Shown in pieces: positions 10,528-31,672 of a stretch of 31,687 nucleotides of DNA. The notes under the pieces were generated by a model. The model saw only the letters and a list, made by a program, of their open reading frames with translations. It was not told the origin of the DNA and made no database searches. The DNA is taken from the IMG/VR virus record IMGVR_UViG_3300021085_000125, positions 1-31,687 of that record, one strand, 5' to 3'. How positions within the stretch are numbered: the stretch's first letter is position 1; each line of letters begins with the position of its first letter. Made by a program: the position numbers and the translations under genes. The stretch is from a virus.

Positions 10528-12978
10528 TTAAGTTGTTGAAGTGGTTGATCGATCCGTAACCCGCGCATCGAGTTTGATGGCTCGTACAATTGGTCGTCCC
10601 TCTGTGGGTGTTACAGTTGTAGTACACCCAAATCCGCGTAGTCGTATGCGAGTCCTTAGACTCGCATCCTCACCCGCTGGTAGGTCGGCATTAGGGGTAA
10701 GTAATTCGCGTATACTTGTACTACCCCTAGACCCATCGGGATCGGTAGTGACAAATGATATATCTGCATTACTTACTAATCCATCTGCGGATTTAATGTG
10801 CAACTCAGCACGGGCAAAGTTTTTGCGGTCAATGGTATCGGCATCGTACTCACGGGAGACGAGTTTGCTATTTACATCAAGTGTCTCAGGAATACTTACG
10901 CCAGCAGATACGGATATTTGATCACCACCATCAAAGCCATCAATCTCATGGACTCCGCCCTCTGCGGTAGTGATATAGATTTTATTCTTTACACCCTCCT
11001 GGGCCACAATCATGTCTCGAATATTAAAGTCTGAGCTATCCACTTGATCTACGCTTTCCCAACCTTGGTTAAGTAGGTTGTAAACAAGAATCATATTATT
11101 CTCCCGCGCTCCATCCACAGGTACTGCGAACCATAAGCGATTATCATGGTAGCGACCAACTGCTTTATCGATTGAATTGGTATTGATCCGAGAGATGATT
11201 GGATTAATCGCTTCCGATAATGGAAGTTCTAGGCCCCGCAAGTTGTACTCATCTAAATATTCTAATCCGTAAATCCCATTGTCGCTAAGAAAGTAAACCT
11301 TATTACCCACCTGGTTGATAGTCCTACGAGCGGCACATCCTAACTCAGAAGTTACAACACTTAGGTTGCAATCTGCGAGCGATCCACTCGTTCCGCCCAA
11401 CCGGTAAATACTTTTCCGACAGAACACTAAAATCGTATCTTCTGAAAATGGTTCGATACCTACGATAAAATCATCACCACCCGAAGCTATACGGAAATTC
11501 TGCCCAATTGGGTCCACAGTATTGTAGTCCAAAATGTCTGTTGCGATTAACTCGTCTGTAAACTTCCGGCGTGTGGGAGTAGTGTCGCTGGTAAAGAAGT
11601 AAGGCATCCATAATCGTTGCTGGTTTAATACAGCAAATGGAGATGCGGGCATATGAATGAGGTGACTAATTACCCGCTTCTTTGCTAATCTTATTAACTT
11701 ATTATCGGTACTTAGTACTTCAGTTATTGATAGTACGAATTGAAAATTATCTACATCGACTACCGAAGAAACTCGTATCTTCTTTCCAATATGTAGATCA
11801 ATTGGTGTAGTCGCATTAACTAACTCCAACTCATCCCCAACGACCAAGCCGTGGGCAGTTTGGTTAAAAGTTACAACCCCACCCGCATCTACAACTACTT
11901 GATTATCCTGGATATGGTCAGGATACGAGTAGTCCCCTGAGTCAACCAACTGAAAGTCGTTAAAGTATTCGATGCGAGCGGCACTCGTTGAATAGGTGTG
12001 AGATGCCCCACCTGTGTTAACAAAGGTAACCGTGAGTGTATCTGCATCAGGAACTGACTTTACTTCATAAATGCCATTGGGGTCACCCTGTCCATCTGCG
12101 GACCAACTACTCAACCCCGCAATGGTTACATAATCATCAACGACCCGTCCGTGTGCAACTGCGGTAATTGTAATCGTTTGCACGGACCTGGATGCGCCTG
12201 TCACATCTATCGTGGTCAAGCTTGGTTCCATGAACATGGTAGTCTTGTCCCCACGAAAAATGAATATCTTGTCGAATGCTTGTACCAATTCGCATCGAGC
12301 ATTTATCTCGTTACTTGCGGGGTAGCGAACCTTGTACTCAGTTCTATCCCGCAGTCGGATTATTTGGCAGACATTATTAGTCGCTGTAAAAATATAAGAC
12401 TCGATCTGCTTATCACCCACAAGAGTGTATGCAGTTGCCCCGTAAACCTCATTAGCTCCTTCGTCATTGATTGTAAAATCAAGTACTGTAACAATCGAAT
12501 TACCGGGGGAAACGAGAGGCTCATCACTCGCAGTAATAGTAAACACTTCGTCCGCTCCACTCGATGGATAAGTTACCAGCTTGTTTGCGTAATTAACTGT
12601 TGCTAGTGCGATTGTTCCATTCGGTGTGTCTCCTGTAAATGGTATACCATCTATCGTAATATTCTCGCCCGGAAGGAAAGCATTATTTGGAGTATCCGCT
12701 AAAACAAGGGTTACTATATTACTCGCCCTTTCCGCAGAAAGAATAGGAAATGGCAATCGTACTGCATCCGCATTAATAGTGATTGCACCCGCAAATGTCT
12801 TTAAACCCTTGCGTGGTTGCCAACCTCCATCCTTGTCCATCCGTCCATTTTGCGACAACGCAACCTCACCAGCCTGTAGCTGGTTCGGACGCAATCGACT
12901 GTTCATTCGCTGGAAAAATACATCCCCTTCCGATACGAATGGATCGTCTAGTTTGCCATATGATCGGTATCTACTCAT
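10528..12978 (-). CDS. Tail nozzle-like beta-propeller protein
   Basis: An 816-residue protein, mostly beta. The centre and C-terminal half carry repeated propeller-like strands (LVFCRKSIYRLGG, KVYFLSDNGIYGLEY, RLWFAVPVDG, KIYITTAEGGVHEIDG). Two related beta inserts begin with AHG(R/L)VVxD (near 275 and 385). Size and position next to the fibres match the distal nozzle of short-tailed phages (T7 gp12, P22 gp10 type). The ATG overlaps the stop of the upstream esterase spike as ATGA. The fold is inferred from strand pattern; sequence similarity to a named nozzle cannot be confirmed by eye. Confidence 0.6.
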   Translation of the reverse strand: MSRYRSYGKLDDPFVSEGDVFFQRMNSRLRPNQLQAGEVALSQNGRMDKDGGWQPRKGLKTFAGAITINADAVRLPFPILSAERASNIVTLVLADTPNNAFLPGENITIDGIPFTGDTPNGTIALATVNYANKLVTYPSSGADEVFTITASDEPLVSPGNSIVTVLDFTINDEGANEVYGATAYTLVGDKQIESYIFTATNNVCQIIRLRDRTEYKVRYPASNEINARCELVQAFDKIFIFRGDKTTMFMEPSLTTIDVTGASRSVQTITITAVAHGRVVDDYVTIAGLSSWSADGQGDPNGIYEVKSVPDADTLTVTFVNTGGASHTYSTSAARIEYFNDFQLVDSGDYSYPDHIQDNQVVVDAGGVVTFNQTAHGLVVGDELELVNATTPIDLHIGKKIRVSSVVDVDNFQFVLSITEVLSTDNKLIRLAKKRVISHLIHMPASPFAVLNQQRLWMPYFFTSDTTPTRRKFTDELIATDILDYNTVDPIGQNFRIASGGDDFIVGIEPFSEDTILVFCRKSIYRLGGTSGSLADCNLSVVTSELGCAARRTINQVGNKVYFLSDNGIYGLEYLDEYNLRGLELPLSEAINPIISRINTNSIDKAVGRYHDNRLWFAVPVDGARENNMILVYNLLNQGWESVDQVDSSDFNIRDMIVAQEGVKNKIYITTAEGGVHEIDGFDGGDQISVSAGVSIPETLDVNSKLVSREYDADTIDRKNFARAELHIKSADGLVSNADISFVTTDPDGSRGSTSIRELLTPNADLPAGEDASLRTRIRLRGFGCTTTVTPTEGRPIVRAIKLDARVTDRSTTSTT

Positions 12979-14927
12979 GGTGCGGTTGTTTTATACGGAT
13001 GCGAAGTTGGTAGGTCTGATGTTAGTCCCCACTTATGAGCGAGGTAACCTTCGATCTTATCTGAGTTTGACTGCGTTGCATCTTCTGTAAATATCGCTTC
13101 TCCCCAATCGGAGTCTGCGTTATTTTGATAGTCGTTAAGCTTAACAGATGCTGTACCGAAAGTTGATAGTCCAGACTGTGCGGAATTAGTGTTGTAAGGT
13201 GTGCCGTTTAAAGATGTGGTTGCCCTAGTATTAGGTACATCAAGTTCAATAGATAGCATTACCCATTGGTTAAGTAAGTTTGATGAGTTGCTTGTTATGT
13301 GCGTCCCTGGACTCATGTACCAATCGCCAGAGAATACTCCGTTACCACTAAGGTTGAACATAATCATCTGATGGGTGGGGTTTGACTTATGAACAGTCAC
13401 CAAAGCGTCATGGCTATCAGACACAGTTACCTTAACCACGAAGTACCATTTGTGAACCGCCGTGGAACTGAAAGCTATGCTCCTAAACGAAGTTGCATCC
13501 GAGTTATTATCGAATCTTAAAATATTCTTATTATTCTGCGAAGTATTAACTGCGGTTAGTGTGCTTCCTCCAGCCGCATTAAAGGTATAGTTGTTGCCCG
13601 ATTTGTCCGCTATAGCTGTAACATTACCACCAGACGAAGTGAAGGTTGTTTGGTCGTCCATATCGAGCCATAGACGGGTAGTAATAGATGAGGGATTCCA
13701 AGCGGCGTTTGTAGATCCTGATATAGCTAGTTGCATTTTATCCGCATACGCCTCTCCGATATCGAACATATCGTTCACGCCGTTACCTGTGGTATCAGAA
13801 CTACCTTCAGCTGTTCTGCCTATATGATTCTGCGAAGCACTATGTCCGTAGGTTGCGGCATCTACAATTCCTATGTACGCATCTGCATTAGCTACAGGAG
13901 TTAGGTCTGTACCGTATCCAATCTTCGTGATGACGACAGGAAACTGAGAGGTATTAGAAACATTGTACGAGTTACCAAGAACTGTTCGTACTGCGGTAAT
14001 TAAAGTATTTAACCCACTAACTGATGAGCCACTCTCGCCCTGCCACCAAATCATACCTTTAAAATTCCAAGAATAACCAGCGTTTGTTAGCTTGGTAGTG
14101 GCATCCGATAGAGCGGCGAGAAATCCACGATAGCAGTCACCTTCTCGGTTACCTGTTGCTGTAGTATCCCAATCGGAAAATGATGTACCAGCGTTCAAGG
14201 TGGACGCACCTACTGCGTATTTAATAATACCGATAGGTTGACTGGTTAAATTGATTGCATTAGCTCGACTTACGAATCCAAGTTCAGGGCCGAAGCTACC
14301 GCTACCCCCTAGGCTCGAACTACCGTCATCACCTCTTGTACTTCCCGATACTAACGAGGTTGCCCACGGCGAGTAATATTGAGTAGTCTCGGCATTGCCT
14401 GTGCTGTTGTGCCATGATGTATAAAAGAGTCCGTCCTGTGTCGCCTGTGCAGACGATAGATCAGAAGCATCAGCGTGACCATGTGCATTCGATTGACCAG
14501 CTAATATAAATAAGTCGATGGTCTGATTAGTGATTACTGAATTATCAAACGTACGATACCAAACCCCGTTGTAAAAGTAAGACATCGTAGGAGTTCCGCC
14601 AATCGTACCGTCTGTGACTAAAGCGTTTGTTCCAGCGGAAGCATTTAATGGAAGGTTTGCTTTAGCGTAGGTACTAATCTGTACGCCATCCTGTCCGTCT
14701 TGTCCGTCTGCTCCATCCGCTCCATCAGCACCATCAGTACCATTATTTCCCGCCACGCCTTGTGGCCCTTGAAACTGTGCTAATACACTCCATTGATCCA
14801 CGCCATTTCCGATCTTGAGTATCTCATTGGTGGTATCAAAGCCTGGTTCCCCAAGGCTCAGGATCGGATTTTCGGAGGCCCACTCACTAGCACTCGATCG
14901 CCGTAGGAATATGCGTCTAATACTCAT
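12975..14927 (-). CDS. Tail spike with collagen-like stalk and SASA esterase domain
   Basis: A 650-residue modular spike. Residues 1-50 (RRIFLRRSSASEW..., LSLGEPGFDTTNEILKIGNG) resemble the Mtd N-terminal attachment domain. A collagen-like GXY run (GPQGVAGNNGTDGADG, about 53-82) forms a stalk. From about 138 there is a sialate O-acetylesterase/SGNH-type domain: LFILAGQSNAHGH contains the nucleophile Ser block and MIWWQGES the second signature; the third-block Asp/His is not certain, with a candidate His in SASQNHIG. The C-terminal 230 residues are a LamG/concanavalin-like sandwich ending YLAHKWGLTSDLPTSHPYK. It would bind and deacetylate a surface glycan. The start overlaps the preceding gene as ATGA. 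Confidence 0.8.
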   Translation of the reverse strand: MSIRRIFLRRSSASEWASENPILSLGEPGFDTTNEILKIGNGVDQWSVLAQFQGPQGVAGNNGTDGADGADGADGQDGQDGVQISTYAKANLPLNASAGTNALVTDGTIGGTPTMSYFYNGVWYRTFDNSVITNQTIDLFILAGQSNAHGHADASDLSSAQATQDGLFYTSWHNSTGNAETTQYYSPWATSLVSGSTRGDDGSSSLGGSGSFGPELGFVSRANAINLTSQPIGIIKYAVGASTLNAGTSFSDWDTTATGNREGDCYRGFLAALSDATTKLTNAGYSWNFKGMIWWQGESGSSVSGLNTLITAVRTVLGNSYNVSNTSQFPVVITKIGYGTDLTPVANADAYIGIVDAATYGHSASQNHIGRTAEGSSDTTGNGVNDMFDIGEAYADKMQLAISGSTNAAWNPSSITTRLWLDMDDQTTFTSSGGNVTAIADKSGNNYTFNAAGGSTLTAVNTSQNNKNILRFDNNSDATSFRSIAFSSTAVHKWYFVVKVTVSDSHDALVTVHKSNPTHQMIMFNLSGNGVFSGDWYMSPGTHITSNSSNLLNQWVMLSIELDVPNTRATTSLNGTPYNTNSAQSGLSTFGTASVKLNDYQNNADSDWGEAIFTEDATQSNSDKIEGYLAHKWGLTSDLPTSHPYKTTAP

Positions 14928-28836: not shown

Positions 28837-28943
28837 TATAAAAAAGAGCTACTCTCCCGACCGAGTGTCGCCGAGGTGTCCTGTCTCTGTTTTCCTGACG
28901 CGGTAATACCGCCCATCGGAAAGTAGCCCTTAAAGTTGTTCAT
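28836..28943 (-). CDS. 35-residue peptide gene
   Basis: A frame of 35 codons (MNNFKGYFPMGGITASGKQR ...) starting inside the last codons of the methyltransferase. It has a good GGAGG site 7 nt before the ATG and ends TAATG on the next start. It fills the only gap in this part of the operon. The Gly/Ser/Gln-rich product has no recognised motif. Confidence 0.5.
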   Translation of the reverse strand: MNNFKGYFPMGGITASGKQRQDTSATLGRESSSFL

Positions 28944-30078
28944 TCATCTTCCTCCAAAGTGATTTCCACGCTATTTCTGCGGTTTGTGGGACGACTCCAT
29001 TGCCCAAGAGCCTAAGTCTGTCCACCCGATGGGTAAGCCCATCAACTGCTCCACCCAATTCGGATTGAGCTTCGCTTGAGCTTTCTTTGCTTTTGGAAAC
29101 TCCTTCATGTGGGCTTGAGTCGGAAGTCCCACAGAAAACTTCTGTCCCGTCTTTCTCACATTCTCGCCCGACTTCAGTATGTGATTTTCCACATCCCTGT
29201 AATCCCGACTCTTTGGAGTCAACCAAGACTCGTGGTTCTTCCCACTCGTACTGCTCTTCTCCGGGGCGGGCGGGCCAGCGTGTATCTTCGCTTCCTCCGC
29301 TAGTATCTTGCCCCCCGTTCCGGGCTTGCGACTGCCGGGGTTCCCGGCTCGCGGTGTGGGCCAATTCTTCGGGTTGTGTACCACTTCTCCTAGATTGCAC
29401 TTCCCCCTGTCGTGTGTCGCGTCTCTGCTCATCGTTTCCCTCGGAGTCGGCCAATTGGGGTTCTGATAGATCATCCTTGGTAGACTCACATCCCCTATTT
29501 TGCTCGGTGCGCAACCTGGGGTATCCTTCCAATCCCTCGATCTTGGTGTCGGGTAGTTTCGCCAAGATGAAGCATCGGATGCGTTGGTGAGGCGCGCCTG
29601 TTTCCTCCGCTGAGTACAAGCCCCACTCCGTTCGGTAACCATCTTCTTCCAAATCGGACAGGACTCGCCATAGCCCCATCGTGGTGTGACCTCGGACATT
29701 TTCAAAGAAGCACCAAACAGGTCTAATTGCCCGGACATGCTTTCGGATGTATGGCCATAAGTGCCTTGGGTCTTCTTCTCCTTTTCGCTTTCCCGCACTA
29801 CTGAAGGGCTGACATGGATATCCTCCAATGAGTCCGTGAATTTTTCCTCGAAATATTTCTGCTGGGAAGGTTTTGAGATCCGAGTAGATAGCTGCGTTAT
29901 CCATCCTCCCTTCTTCAATCTTCGCAACCAGGTTTGCTTGGACGAAGGCTTCGATCTCCACATTGCAGACTGTTCTAACATCCACGCCCGCTCGTCTAAT
30001 CCCAGATTCAATCCCTCCGTATCCGGTACAAAAGCTGATAATGTTTTGGGTACTATCCACATCTATGCGATCTCCCAT
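28930..30078 (-). CDS. DNA cytosine-5 methyltransferase
   Basis: A 382-residue C5-methyltransferase. Motif I SFCTGYGG (15-22) binds S-adenosylmethionine. Motif IV GGYPCQPFS (85-93) holds the catalytic Cys89, motif VI is ENV (126-128) and motif VIII is QRIR (165-168). Motifs IX-X (RVDRLRLLGNGVVPQTAEI) lie near the C-terminus. Between VIII and IX, where target recognition sits, is a hydrophilic 170-residue region with four LADS-like repeats (LPDTK, LADSE, LAHTA, LVDSK). It probably protects phage DNA from host restriction. No cognate restriction gene is visible. A second long frame is embedded in the gene. It overlaps the HTH gene by 16 nt. Confidence 0.9.
   Translation of the reverse strand: MGDRIDVDSTQNIISFCTGYGGIESGIRRAGVDVRTVCNVEIEAFVQANLVAKIEEGRMDNAAIYSDLKTFPAEIFRGKIHGLIGGYPCQPFSSAGKRKGEEDPRHLWPYIRKHVRAIRPVWCFFENVRGHTTMGLWRVLSDLEEDGYRTEWGLYSAEETGAPHQRIRCFILAKLPDTKIEGLEGYPRLRTEQNRGCESTKDDLSEPQLADSEGNDEQRRDTRQGEVQSRRSGTQPEELAHTASREPRQSQARNGGQDTSGGSEDTRWPARPGEEQYEWEEPRVLVDSKESGLQGCGKSHTEVGRECEKDGTEVFCGTSDSSPHEGVSKSKESSSEAQSELGGAVDGLTHRVDRLRLLGNGVVPQTAEIAWKSLWRKMNEQL
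28971..30062 (-). CDS. Candidate overprinted gene inside the methyltransferase (363 codons)
   Basis: An uninterrupted 363-codon frame wholly within the methyltransferase, in its +1 frame. The ATG directly follows the TAG of the HTH gene (TAGATG) and has a GGGAG ribosome site 9 nt upstream. The product is basic and has its own architecture: KKGGWITQLS near 51-60, QLDLFGASLKMSEV near 112-125, and four (W/Y)(P/L)TP(R/K) repeats (170, 204, 234, 280). Near the end is LNPNWVEQLMGLPIGWTDL (332-350). I recall this last motif and the WPTPR repeats from proteins annotated at phage methyltransferase loci, but cannot check. It may be an independent protein, a frameshift-fusion C-terminus of the methyltransferase, or a by-product of nucleotide conservation in the main frame. 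Confidence 0.45.
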   Translation of the reverse strand: MWIVPKTLSAFVPDTEGLNLGLDERAWMLEQSAMWRSKPSSKQTWLRRLKKGGWITQLSTRISKPSQQKYFEEKFTDSLEDIHVSPSVVRESEKEKKTQGTYGHTSESMSGQLDLFGASLKMSEVTPRWGYGESCPIWKKMVTERSGACTQRRKQARLTNASDASSWRNYPTPRSRDWKDTPGCAPSKIGDVSLPRMIYQNPNWPTPRETMSRDATHDRGKCNLGEVVHNPKNWPTPRAGNPGSRKPGTGGKILAEEAKIHAGPPAPEKSSTSGKNHESWLTPKSRDYRDVENHILKSGENVRKTGQKFSVGLPTQAHMKEFPKAKKAQAKLNPNWVEQLMGLPIGWTDLGSWAMESSHKPQK

Positions 30079-30491
30079 ACCCCGTGATCCTCACCTTTTA
30101 CTCTTATCTCATCCCCGACATAATACTTACCAGGTTTGCAACGAACCTTACCATGTGTCCCATCACGGAACTCTATTAACCGTAAAAATTTATTCTGTGG
30201 AATAGCATAGACCTTAGCCATACGAGCCTCTCCAACCTCTTCCCTGACCACAACCCTGGGCTTCTTCGCCTCCTCGATCATAGCGTCAACCTCAGCAATC
30301 TCTTCCTCTACAACCTTCTCGCCATTCAATTCACGCAACTTGCGCTCCATCTTGTACGATATTCGGTTTCCATGAACACATGTACGCATAGTACTACGCT
30401 TAATTCCCATCATCTTGGAAAATTCATCCCGACTAATTCCAACCTTTCTCAAGATTGCCATGCACTCCTTACCACCCATTCGTTCCGCCAT
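30063..30491 (-). CDS. HTH regulator with C-terminal beta domain
   Basis: A 142-residue protein. Residues 10-56 form a helix-turn-helix (CMAILRKVGISRDEFSKMMG, then STMRTCVHGNRISYKMERKL) like XRE/Cro-type domains that bind operators. An acidic helical linker (58-85) leads to a small beta domain (86-142, VYAIPQNKFLRLIEFRDGTH ... GKYYVGDEIRVKG). It is the first minus-strand gene of the right-hand operon and faces a divergent gene across 58 bp holding two TGTAG repeats 10 bp apart, so it is a good candidate for the regulator of those sites. GGGAG lies just before the ATG. It overlaps the methyltransferase start by 16 nt. Confidence 0.65.
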   Translation of the reverse strand: MAERMGGKECMAILRKVGISRDEFSKMMGIKRSTMRTCVHGNRISYKMERKLRELNGEKVVEEEIAEVDAMIEEAKKPRVVVREEVGEARMAKVYAIPQNKFLRLIEFRDGTHGKVRCKPGKYYVGDEIRVKGEDHGVWEIA

Positions 30492-30549: not shown

Positions 30550-31092
30550 ATGCCGAAAGGAATGCCCAAGAAACTCAAACCCTTTAACGATAAATTAAAG
30601 GATAAAGTATTAACTTCCGCCGCCCGTATCGCGGCCCGTCAATCTAGTGCAAAGGAGGAAGCAAAGAATATGGAACTAACCACACGCCAGGAAGAAGATA
30701 GATTACGAGTACACAACGCTCTGAGGTTCGGCATGAAAATGACAGAGCAGCAATTCCTCACAGAAGTACAAAAGAAGCTCCAGCACATGGTCGCAGACTC
30801 ACTAAACGATCTACACGATTCAATAGATCAAATACCTCCACAGAATAAAGCCTATGCCGTGGGTATGCTCTTCGACAAACTTATGACCATATCAGGTAGA
30901 CCCACAAACATTACCGCATCTGCCAATGTAAAACTAGGATCTTCCGATATGTCACCCAATCAAGTACGAGATATCCTTAAAAAAGGAGTCAAGAATCTAC
31001 CAAAGGATGCATCCACAGAAAAAGTAATCGATATAGAAGACGCACAAACCACAGAAGTACATGAGGAAGTCGATACTCGGACCGAAGATTAA
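30550..31092 (+). CDS. TerS-like or DNA-binding protein
   Basis: A 180-residue protein. Basic N-terminus (MPKGMPKKLKPFNDKLKDKV), a charged helical part, then MTEQQFLTEVQKKLQHMVAD, NKAYAVGMLFDKLMTISGRP and an acidic tail (EDAQTTEVHEEVDTRTED). The segment with a helix ending DKLMTISGRPT followed by short strands resembles small terminase or phage DNA-binding proteins whose helix ends 'DK..LLSG.PT'. No small terminase is found elsewhere in the window. However, it is on the opposite strand to TerL. No ribosome site; ATG is close to the predicted transcript start. Confidence 0.4.
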   Translation: MPKGMPKKLKPFNDKLKDKVLTSAARIAARQSSAKEEAKNMELTTRQEEDRLRVHNALRFGMKMTEQQFLTEVQKKLQHMVADSLNDLHDSIDQIPPQNKAYAVGMLFDKLMTISGRPTNITASANVKLGSSDMSPNQVRDILKKGVKNLPKDASTEKVIDIEDAQTTEVHEEVDTRTED

Positions 31093-31672
31093 TGCCCTAC
31101 GACTCCAGGGACTATCCTATAAAGATATACAAAACACTCTAGGATGTTCACTAGGTACGATCTCGTACTACCTCGGAAAAGGACAGAAGGAAAAAACTAA
31201 GAAGCGTAGAGCAAATATATCCCCCTCAACCTATATCCATGTAAAACGAGTAAACTACTTCCAGAATCCAACCATTCGGAAACAAAAGAAGTTAAATCCA
31301 AAAACCTCATTCACTAAAAGGGAAATGACTAAATCAATCTCAGATAAATCATCACGGTTCCAACGCTCTTCCGCATTTAATTACAAAGATGTATATGCGA
31401 AGTATGGTGACCACTTCCAATGCGGACTAACAGGAAGACCATTAACCTGGAATGAACCACATACCTATGAATACGACCATATACTCCCCGTAGCTCGTGG
31501 AGGGAACTCGTGCATAGAGAATTTACAAATCGTCTGTACGGACGCAAATAGAGCAAAGAATGATATGACCGAGGACGAGTTCCTAGACCTTTGCAAAGAA
31601 ATAGTACTACATGCCGGATATAAGGTCTATAAGCCTTCCGGTTCACACCACTCGAATAAACACACCAAGTAG
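31061..31672 (+). CDS. HNH endonuclease with N-terminal HTH
   Basis: A 203-residue nuclease. Residues 8-40 are a helix-turn-helix (LRLQGLSYKDIQNTLGCSLG), a basic linker follows (44-100), and the HNH domain occupies about 115-185: Cys121, the metal/catalytic core EYDHILPVARGG (His140), Asn154 in NLQIV, Cys159 and Asn163 in DANRAKND. HTH-HNH fusions are typical of phage-borne homing or packaging-associated nucleases. It overlaps the TerS-like gene by 32 nt and ends 15 nt before the window edge. It may cut at a packaging site or be a selfish intronless homing gene. Confidence 0.85.
   Translation: MRKSILGPKINALRLQGLSYKDIQNTLGCSLGTISYYLGKGQKEKTKKRRANISPSTYIHVKRVNYFQNPTIRKQKKLNPKTSFTKREMTKSISDKSSRFQRSSAFNYKDVYAKYGDHFQCGLTGRPLTWNEPHTYEYDHILPVARGGNSCIENLQIVCTDANRAKNDMTEDEFLDLCKEIVLHAGYKVYKPSGSHHSNKHTK

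Follow-up and report, generated by a model that had tools for sequence, protein, structure and literature searches.

The C5-cytosine DNA methyltransferase gene described here is open in two co-extensive reading frames, and sequence comparison leaves no doubt that dual coding at this methylase locus is under selection. We consider it very likely (probability about 0.86) that the two frames encode one two-subunit enzyme. The methylase frame would specify the chain termed alpha, the +1 frame would specify the chain termed beta, which holds motif IX and probable recognition cassettes, and the two chains would assemble. Judged by its motif content, beta is very likely a methylase subunit supplying motif IX.

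The DNA analysed is a 31.7-kb IMG/VR virus record, and the window is its whole 31,687 nt. Window genes include terminase-like, SU10-type capsid, tail, integrase, recombination and MazG genes. Since no restriction gene was recognised among the window genes searched, the methylase looks like an orphan phage methylase. Elsewhere in the window, an HNH endonuclease with an N-terminal helix-turn-helix (31061-31672, plus strand; phrog_6050, E 2.1e-23; Pfam HNH) is encoded about 1 kb from the methylase start, and a tail protein (12975-14927, minus strand) features an Mtd N-terminal domain, a collagen repeat and a sialic-acid acetylesterase-type domain.

The original prediction of a 363-codon +1 ORF inside the methyltransferase gene was exact, as the ORF spans 28971-30062 on the minus strand, within a 382-codon ORF at 28930-30078. 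The four (W/Y)(P/L)TP motifs announced for the +1 frame were located at beta residues 170, 204, 234 and 280, and the C-terminal signature, KLNPNWVEQLMGLPIGWTDL, at residues 331-350. The main frame is repetitive too, as had been noticed: identical nucleotides read as LPDT/LADS/LAHT/LVDS in the methylase frame. The features of the locus are as follows.

30063-30491, minus strand: upstream gene, 142 aa, HTH-regulator-like; its TAG (30065-30063) abuts the beta ATG, and the gene end overlaps the alpha ATG
28930-30078, minus strand: alpha ORF, C5-cytosine methyltransferase with motifs I-VIII and X, 382 aa; ATG at 30078, second possible start GTG at 30060-30058; PF00145, E 8.5e-33
28971-30062, minus strand: beta ORF (+1 frame), 363 aa, ATG start; overlap region, WPTP cassettes and motif IX; based on the ORF call, the PHROG phrog_1008 match and the selection tests
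30058-30062, minus strand: overlapping starts ATGTG, with the beta ATG at 30062-30060 and the in-frame alpha GTG at 30060-30058; alpha GTG kept across loci
30013-30033, minus strand: alpha motif I (FCTGYGG); invariant C17, G19 and G22
29800-29826, minus strand: alpha motif IV (GGYPCQPFS) with the catalytic Cys; invariant P88, C89 and Q90
29695-29709, minus strand: alpha motif VI (FFENV); invariant E126, N127 and V128
29563-29586, minus strand: alpha motif VIII (QRIRCFIL); invariant R166 and R168
29454-29555, minus strand: beta cassette 1 (YPTPRSRDWKD...), probable target-recognition module, from module comparison
29364-29453, minus strand: beta cassette 2 (WPTPRETMSRD...); the same cassette in 7 loci, at many different positions
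29226-29363, minus strand: beta cassette 3 (WPTPRAGNPGSRKPGTGG...); the same cassette in 45 loci, positions differing
29227-29277, minus strand: conserved alpha block WPARPGEEQYEWEEPRV in the interval from the repeats to motif X; moves into beta together with motif X in split relatives
29073-29225, minus strand: beta cassette 4 (WLTPKSRDYRDVENH...), from module comparison
29013-29072, minus strand: beta motif IX (KLNPNWVEQLMGLPIGWTDL); profile match to the pre-motif-X segment of single-frame relatives (98.1%, E 9.3e-14)
28984-29019, minus strand: alpha motif X (RLRLLGNGVVPQ); invariant R356-V362

The probability of so long an open run had been put at 10^-8 to 10^-7. The formula (61/64)^363 gives 2.7e-8, but a model with equal codons is too simple. 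Synonymous-codon shuffles, in which the methylase protein and its codon usage are fixed, predict 6.9 +1 stops in the window gene, and none of 20,000 shuffles was open. Using both proteins as search queries, we collected 72 complete distinct viral loci. In 71 of these, no stop interrupts the +1 frame until 35 codons before the methylase end; the same fixed-end count gives a total of one stop in the +1 frame and 1,097 in the +2 frame. The single exception (L130, 1228-2089) has its stop at codon 131, which may reflect decay or a sequencing error. In shuffles of 48 non-redundant loci, 0 stops were observed versus 283 expected in the +1 frame, and 816 versus 816 in the +2 frame; the stretch tested here ends at the +1 stop, and the fixed-end count over 72 loci is the fairer measure.

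The deficit varies with the type of gene. Between motif IV and the first module, generic PF00145 C5 methylases have 240 +1 stops versus 244 expected and single-frame mycobacteriophage-like genes 36 versus 42, while two dual-coding sets have 8 versus 58 and 4 versus 41. The constraint on the +1 frame thus follows need: it is there when the frame is needed and gone when it is not.

Substitutions were classed by their effect in both frames, with the flanking genes of the same loci as controls. The ratio of +1 non-synonymous to +1 synonymous change among methylase-silent substitutions (SN/SS) is 0.37 in the catalytic region and 0.30 in the variable region, compared with 1.22 in flanking genes; the pairs counted are phylogenetically non-independent, which makes the confidence intervals too narrow, and the contrast with the controls is large. 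Methylase-silent changes creating a +1 stop are absent from 4,754 weighted sites of the catalytic region, compared with 0.168 per site in flanking control genes. By codon position, the slowest rate in the repeat region (0.062, versus 0.18 and 0.17) is found at the position that is non-synonymous in both frames, as expected if both frames count. The alpha frame is also constrained there (NN/SN 0.14). The +1 frame is under purifying selection.

The alignment of homologous loci and the constraint check in each frame, both proposed with the original prediction, thus found the +1 frame open beyond expectation and selected. Repeated +1 stops in homologues and unconstrained +1 non-synonymous change, either of which was to count against dual coding, do not occur: one stop was found over the 72 complete loci, and both SN/SS values lie far below that of the controls. 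Dual coding is strongly supported, and the comparative evidence, with 71 of 72 loci open and no stops where 283 are expected, is decisive.

Alpha matches PF00145, and the catalytic-domain motifs I, IV (PCQ), VI (ENV) and VIII are present as invariant columns, as is motif X. When the alpha family profile was compared with solved C5 methyltransferases, the match was confined to columns 9-179, i.e., motifs I-VIII. Alpha does not combine the catalytic motifs with motif IX and a recognition domain; motif IX is in the +1 frame. By this motif inventory, alpha is incomplete as a lone C5-methylase chain and complete together with beta. Motif IX in the +1 frame and motif X in frame 0 were seen across many bacterial loci. 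That beta also overlaps motifs I-VIII of alpha is a conserved feature.

Beta matches PHROG family phrog_1008, "DNA methyltransferase" (E 1.6e-20), at profile positions 36-281, which comprise the WPTP and motif IX region; positions 286-320 of the same profile are matched by the motif X tail of the window alpha. Neither Pfam nor NCBIfam contained a match to beta, its profile had no meaningful match in the PDB, and the AlphaFold2 model of the isolated beta chain was of low confidence (pLDDT 49.6). Beta very likely carries the motif IX missing from alpha, in the form KLNPNWVEQLMGLPIGW, because the +1 segment is homologous to the in-frame motif IX segment of single-frame relatives (hhalign, 98.1%, E 9.3e-14), and the model of a single-frame protein aligns with M.HhaI (Z 22.9 over 235 residues, residues 1-367 against M.HhaI 12-325). 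This model has pLDDT > 80 from about residue 280 to 360, and its WPTP region is unstructured as well. The link to M.HhaI rests on the single-frame model, since profiles of the motif IX segments found no C5 methyltransferase in the PDB. The M.HhaI motif IX, KLHPRECARVMGYPDSY, aligns gap-free with KLNPNWVEQLMGLPIGW.

The original prediction had a second protein overprinted on a methyltransferase recognition region. The ORF does not have the look of an unrelated protein; it appears to hold the parts that alpha lacks, namely motif IX and, probably, modules for target recognition. As for the alpha LADS-like repeats, they seem to be mostly what the WPTP modules spell when read in the other frame, together with a linker to motif X: in split relatives, whose alpha ends after motif VIII, the LADS frame is filled with stops.

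Tandem exchangeable modules lie between motifs VIII and IX. The 218 WPTP modules identified, 1 to 7 per gene, fall into 55 clusters, and the same cassette occurs at differing positions in different genes, indicating that positions are shuffled. WPTP cassettes are likely target-recognition modules that set specificity; by analogy, one cassette may read one sequence. No cassette can carry a stop in either frame, a requirement that would constrain recombination.

The start regions are conserved. The beta start is an ATG or GTG with TGG as the next codon (xTG-TGG) in 67 of the 72 loci, and all 67 feature an in-frame alpha GTG at +2 of the beta start (ATGTG). This GTG is the sole upstream alpha start in 32 of them; the window alpha has its own ATG at 30078 in addition. 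Relative to the beta start, the stop of the upstream gene is at -3, -2 or +7 in 63 of the 67 loci, and where it is at +7, three frames meet within ten bases. RNA folding of the start region is mildly stable (z -2.0). In about a dozen mostly clostridial relatives, beta begins further inside alpha, just behind a Shine-Dalgarno-type AAAGGAGG. Coupled reinitiation or a shared ribosome site may make both chains.

Relatives partition the same parts differently. In the nested form, as in the window, alpha has motifs I-VIII and X, and beta has the WPTP modules and motif IX. In the split form (Firmicutes loci L326-L329 and L338), alpha ends directly after motif VIII; PF00145 covers only positions 1-181 and 2-166 of the two split alphas checked. 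Split-form beta consists of WPTP modules, motif IX, the WPAG block and motif X, and the former LADS frame is full of stops. In the single-frame form, found at mycobacteriophage-like loci, the later modules and motifs IX and X are within the methylase frame. For instance, Estave1/JoeyJr-like phages have LLPTP modules, FPEWMMGWPAGWVT and motif X after motif VIII, all in one frame.

At least six bacterial phyla have phages or prophages with the same double coding. An open +1 frame with an IX-like motif, along with motif X in frame 0, was found in contigs labelled Bacteroidota, Verrucomicrobia, Alphaproteobacteria, Planctomycetes, Firmicutes, Clostridia and Actinobacteria, and also in the classic phages N15 (gene 58) and K1ind3. 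In four sampled classes, PHROG 1008 matches were found in 11/151, 6/148, 9/148 and 6/149 genomes, each count including the genome used to choose the class. Annotators usually call one frame only. For instance, the deposited "cytosine-specific methyltransferase" CDS of Acidovorax phage Alfacinha1 (L142, 1502-2635) is the beta frame, and the catalytic frame is unannotated. Both nested ORFs are annotated in the K1ind3 and PhiXhv-28 records.

It is probable, at a level of confidence below that for the window enzyme, that these loci form a phage and prophage C5-methylase family spanning at least six phyla, in which catalytic and sequence-reading chains are encoded in two frames with overlapping starts (ATGTG, often with the upstream stop) and cassettes are shuffled if open in both. 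Double coding would be the ancestral or default state, and split and single-frame enzymes would be derived.

In the mechanism that we propose, alpha would make the AdoMet-binding and catalytic domain (motifs I-VIII), followed by a hydrophilic linker and motif X. Beta would be initiated at its own ATG, adjoining the stop of the upstream gene and overlapping the in-frame alpha GTG. It would supply motif IX, the core of the small domain, and add a row of exchangeable WPTP cassettes of 25-50 residues, which most likely read target sequences. Assembly of alpha and beta would yield the active enzyme. Because no restriction gene was recognised nearby, the enzyme probably shields phage DNA from host restriction, and swapping or adding a cassette would change or widen specificity.

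Several other explanations were weighed. Some codon bias favours an open +1 frame, and two ordinary methylases (L399 and L400) are open in it across 100 codons, as might be expected if the +1 ORF were an untranslated by-product of methylase codon usage. However, the stops missing from the 48 loci are missing with the methylase protein and codon usage fixed, ordinary and single-frame methylases show no +1 stop deficit, silent changes creating a +1 stop are absent from the catalytic region, and the beta start is conserved. The stop deficit and the selection tests refute this idea statistically, and we give it virtually no credence. Programmed frameshifting from alpha into the +1 frame, and back again for motif X, would produce a single chain with the motifs in the order I-VIII (frame 0), IX (+1) and X (frame 0). 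Such a chain requires two shifts, and stretches left unread need not stay open, yet both frames are open nearly throughout. Moreover, beta has a conserved start beside the upstream stop and, in clostridial loci, a AAAGGAGG of its own, and split loci carry motif X in beta past a separate alpha stop. Frameshifting was rejected as highly improbable.

Two further alternatives accept that beta is made. Beta could be a real, translated but independent protein (e.g., a regulator or an anti-restriction factor) and no methylase subunit, which would agree with the lack of a recognisable fold for beta alone and of a Pfam or NCBIfam match. This is quite unlikely: alpha is without motif IX and a recognisable recognition domain, whereas beta carries motif IX and probably the recognition part, and split relatives place motif X itself in beta. 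In single-frame relatives, a single chain holds the methylase, the WPTP modules and motifs IX and X, and PHROG 1008 spans the WPTP and motif IX regions of the window beta together with motif X of the window alpha. It is also unlikely, if less so, that a two-subunit enzyme takes motif IX only from beta, with recognition residing in the LADS region of alpha and the WPTP modules having a different role. The recognition domain of M.EcoHK31I has been predicted in the large subunit (PMC3404938), and the constraint on the alpha frame in the repeat region points the same way. In split relatives, however, many stops break up the LADS frame although beta retains its WPTP modules, mycobacteriophage modules change frame together with motifs IX and X, and cassette swapping is typical of recognition modules. 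A two-subunit enzyme in which beta provides both motif IX and probable recognition cassettes is thus the reading that we prefer.

In motif layout, M.EcoHK31I (YGGCCR), a two-polypeptide C5-methylase, is the nearest functional precedent. Its small-subunit gene was reportedly located by Lee et al. in 1995 within the large-subunit gene, in another frame. The large subunit contains motifs I-VIII and X and the small subunit motif IX, with the recognition domain predicted in the large one (PMC3404938). The window locus has the same partition, with motifs I-VIII and X in the large chain and IX in the small. M.EcoHK31I is one restriction-modification enzyme, whereas the window system is phage-borne with no restriction gene recognised nearby. 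Unlike M.EcoHK31I as described, the window beta has arrays of exchangeable cassettes and the two genes share a start region. M.AquI also consists of two polypeptides, one with motifs I-VIII, the other with the distal variable region and motifs IX and X (PMC3404938). This layout resembles that of the split relatives L326-L329. In contrast, the window keeps motif X in alpha, and beta is nested entirely within alpha.

In multispecific phage C5-methylases of the SPbeta, phi3T and rho11 type, a tandem series of recognition modules separates motif VIII from motif IX, and the modules are shuffled among relatives. Those modules are in the methylase frame, whereas in the window they are in the overlapping +1 frame. 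PHROG 1008 and the phage records annotating both nested ORFs share the window architecture: in Escherichia phage K1ind3 (ORF30, methylase; ORF29, "Mte8-like") and Xanthomonas phage PhiXhv-28, a second CDS lies in the +1 frame inside the methylase. These records state no function or mechanism for the nested ORF; the window locus is a more remote relative that has four cassettes and whose beta begins at the alpha N-terminus. The Estave1/JoeyJr methylases belong to the same family, and their WPTP, IX and X regions are homologous to those of the window, with the recognition part mostly in the methylase frame. An out-of-frame HNH insertion, "ShiLan", has been published for a mycobacteriophage methylase in 2025 (PMC11855218). 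In the available part of that paper, the hidden ORF is a homing endonuclease, not a subunit, and a second subunit is not described (PMC11855218); the hidden ORF of the window is a proposed subunit. The open-access literature searched contained passing mentions of M.EcoHK31I only, and no paper on this overlap. The breadth of the family, the cassette shuffling and the dual start seem not to have been described there.

Beyond the smallest viruses, long overlaps on one strand are considered rare, and gene callers discard them. At this locus, about 1.1 kb would be double-coding for two halves of one enzyme, an arrangement recurring in phages and prophages of distant phyla. If true, this explains why databases contain two unrelated-looking "DNA methyltransferase" families and why annotations choose either frame. 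For research on overlapping genes, the enzyme would offer a product that can be measured, namely methylated sites, and its dual, split and single-frame relatives would serve as natural controls. A phage methylome predicted from the methylase frame only would miss the chain that probably sets specificity.

Further variants were also observed. Mycobacteriophage-like loci L365-L396 often retain one or two initial WPTP modules in the +1 frame (codons ~155-213) and have later ones in frame 0, so that the two coding states form a mosaic. In Streptomyces/Actinomadura loci L205, L206, L208 and L211, the +1 ORF holding the WPTP modules ends immediately ahead of motif IX, and motifs IX and X are in frame 0. 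At L212, the stretch from the beta stop to motif X has an HNH-endonuclease-like +1 reading (CPVCG...HHIDQNPKNNTSGN...CAGCHTRLHW) with the methylase frame open, resembling the ShiLan insertion. On the Paenibacillus plasmid pAP1 (L464), one +1 ORF end with motif IX (LNPTWVECLMGFPLDWT) is followed by another (LNPAWVECLMGFPLGWT), which would fit a duplicated C-terminal part.
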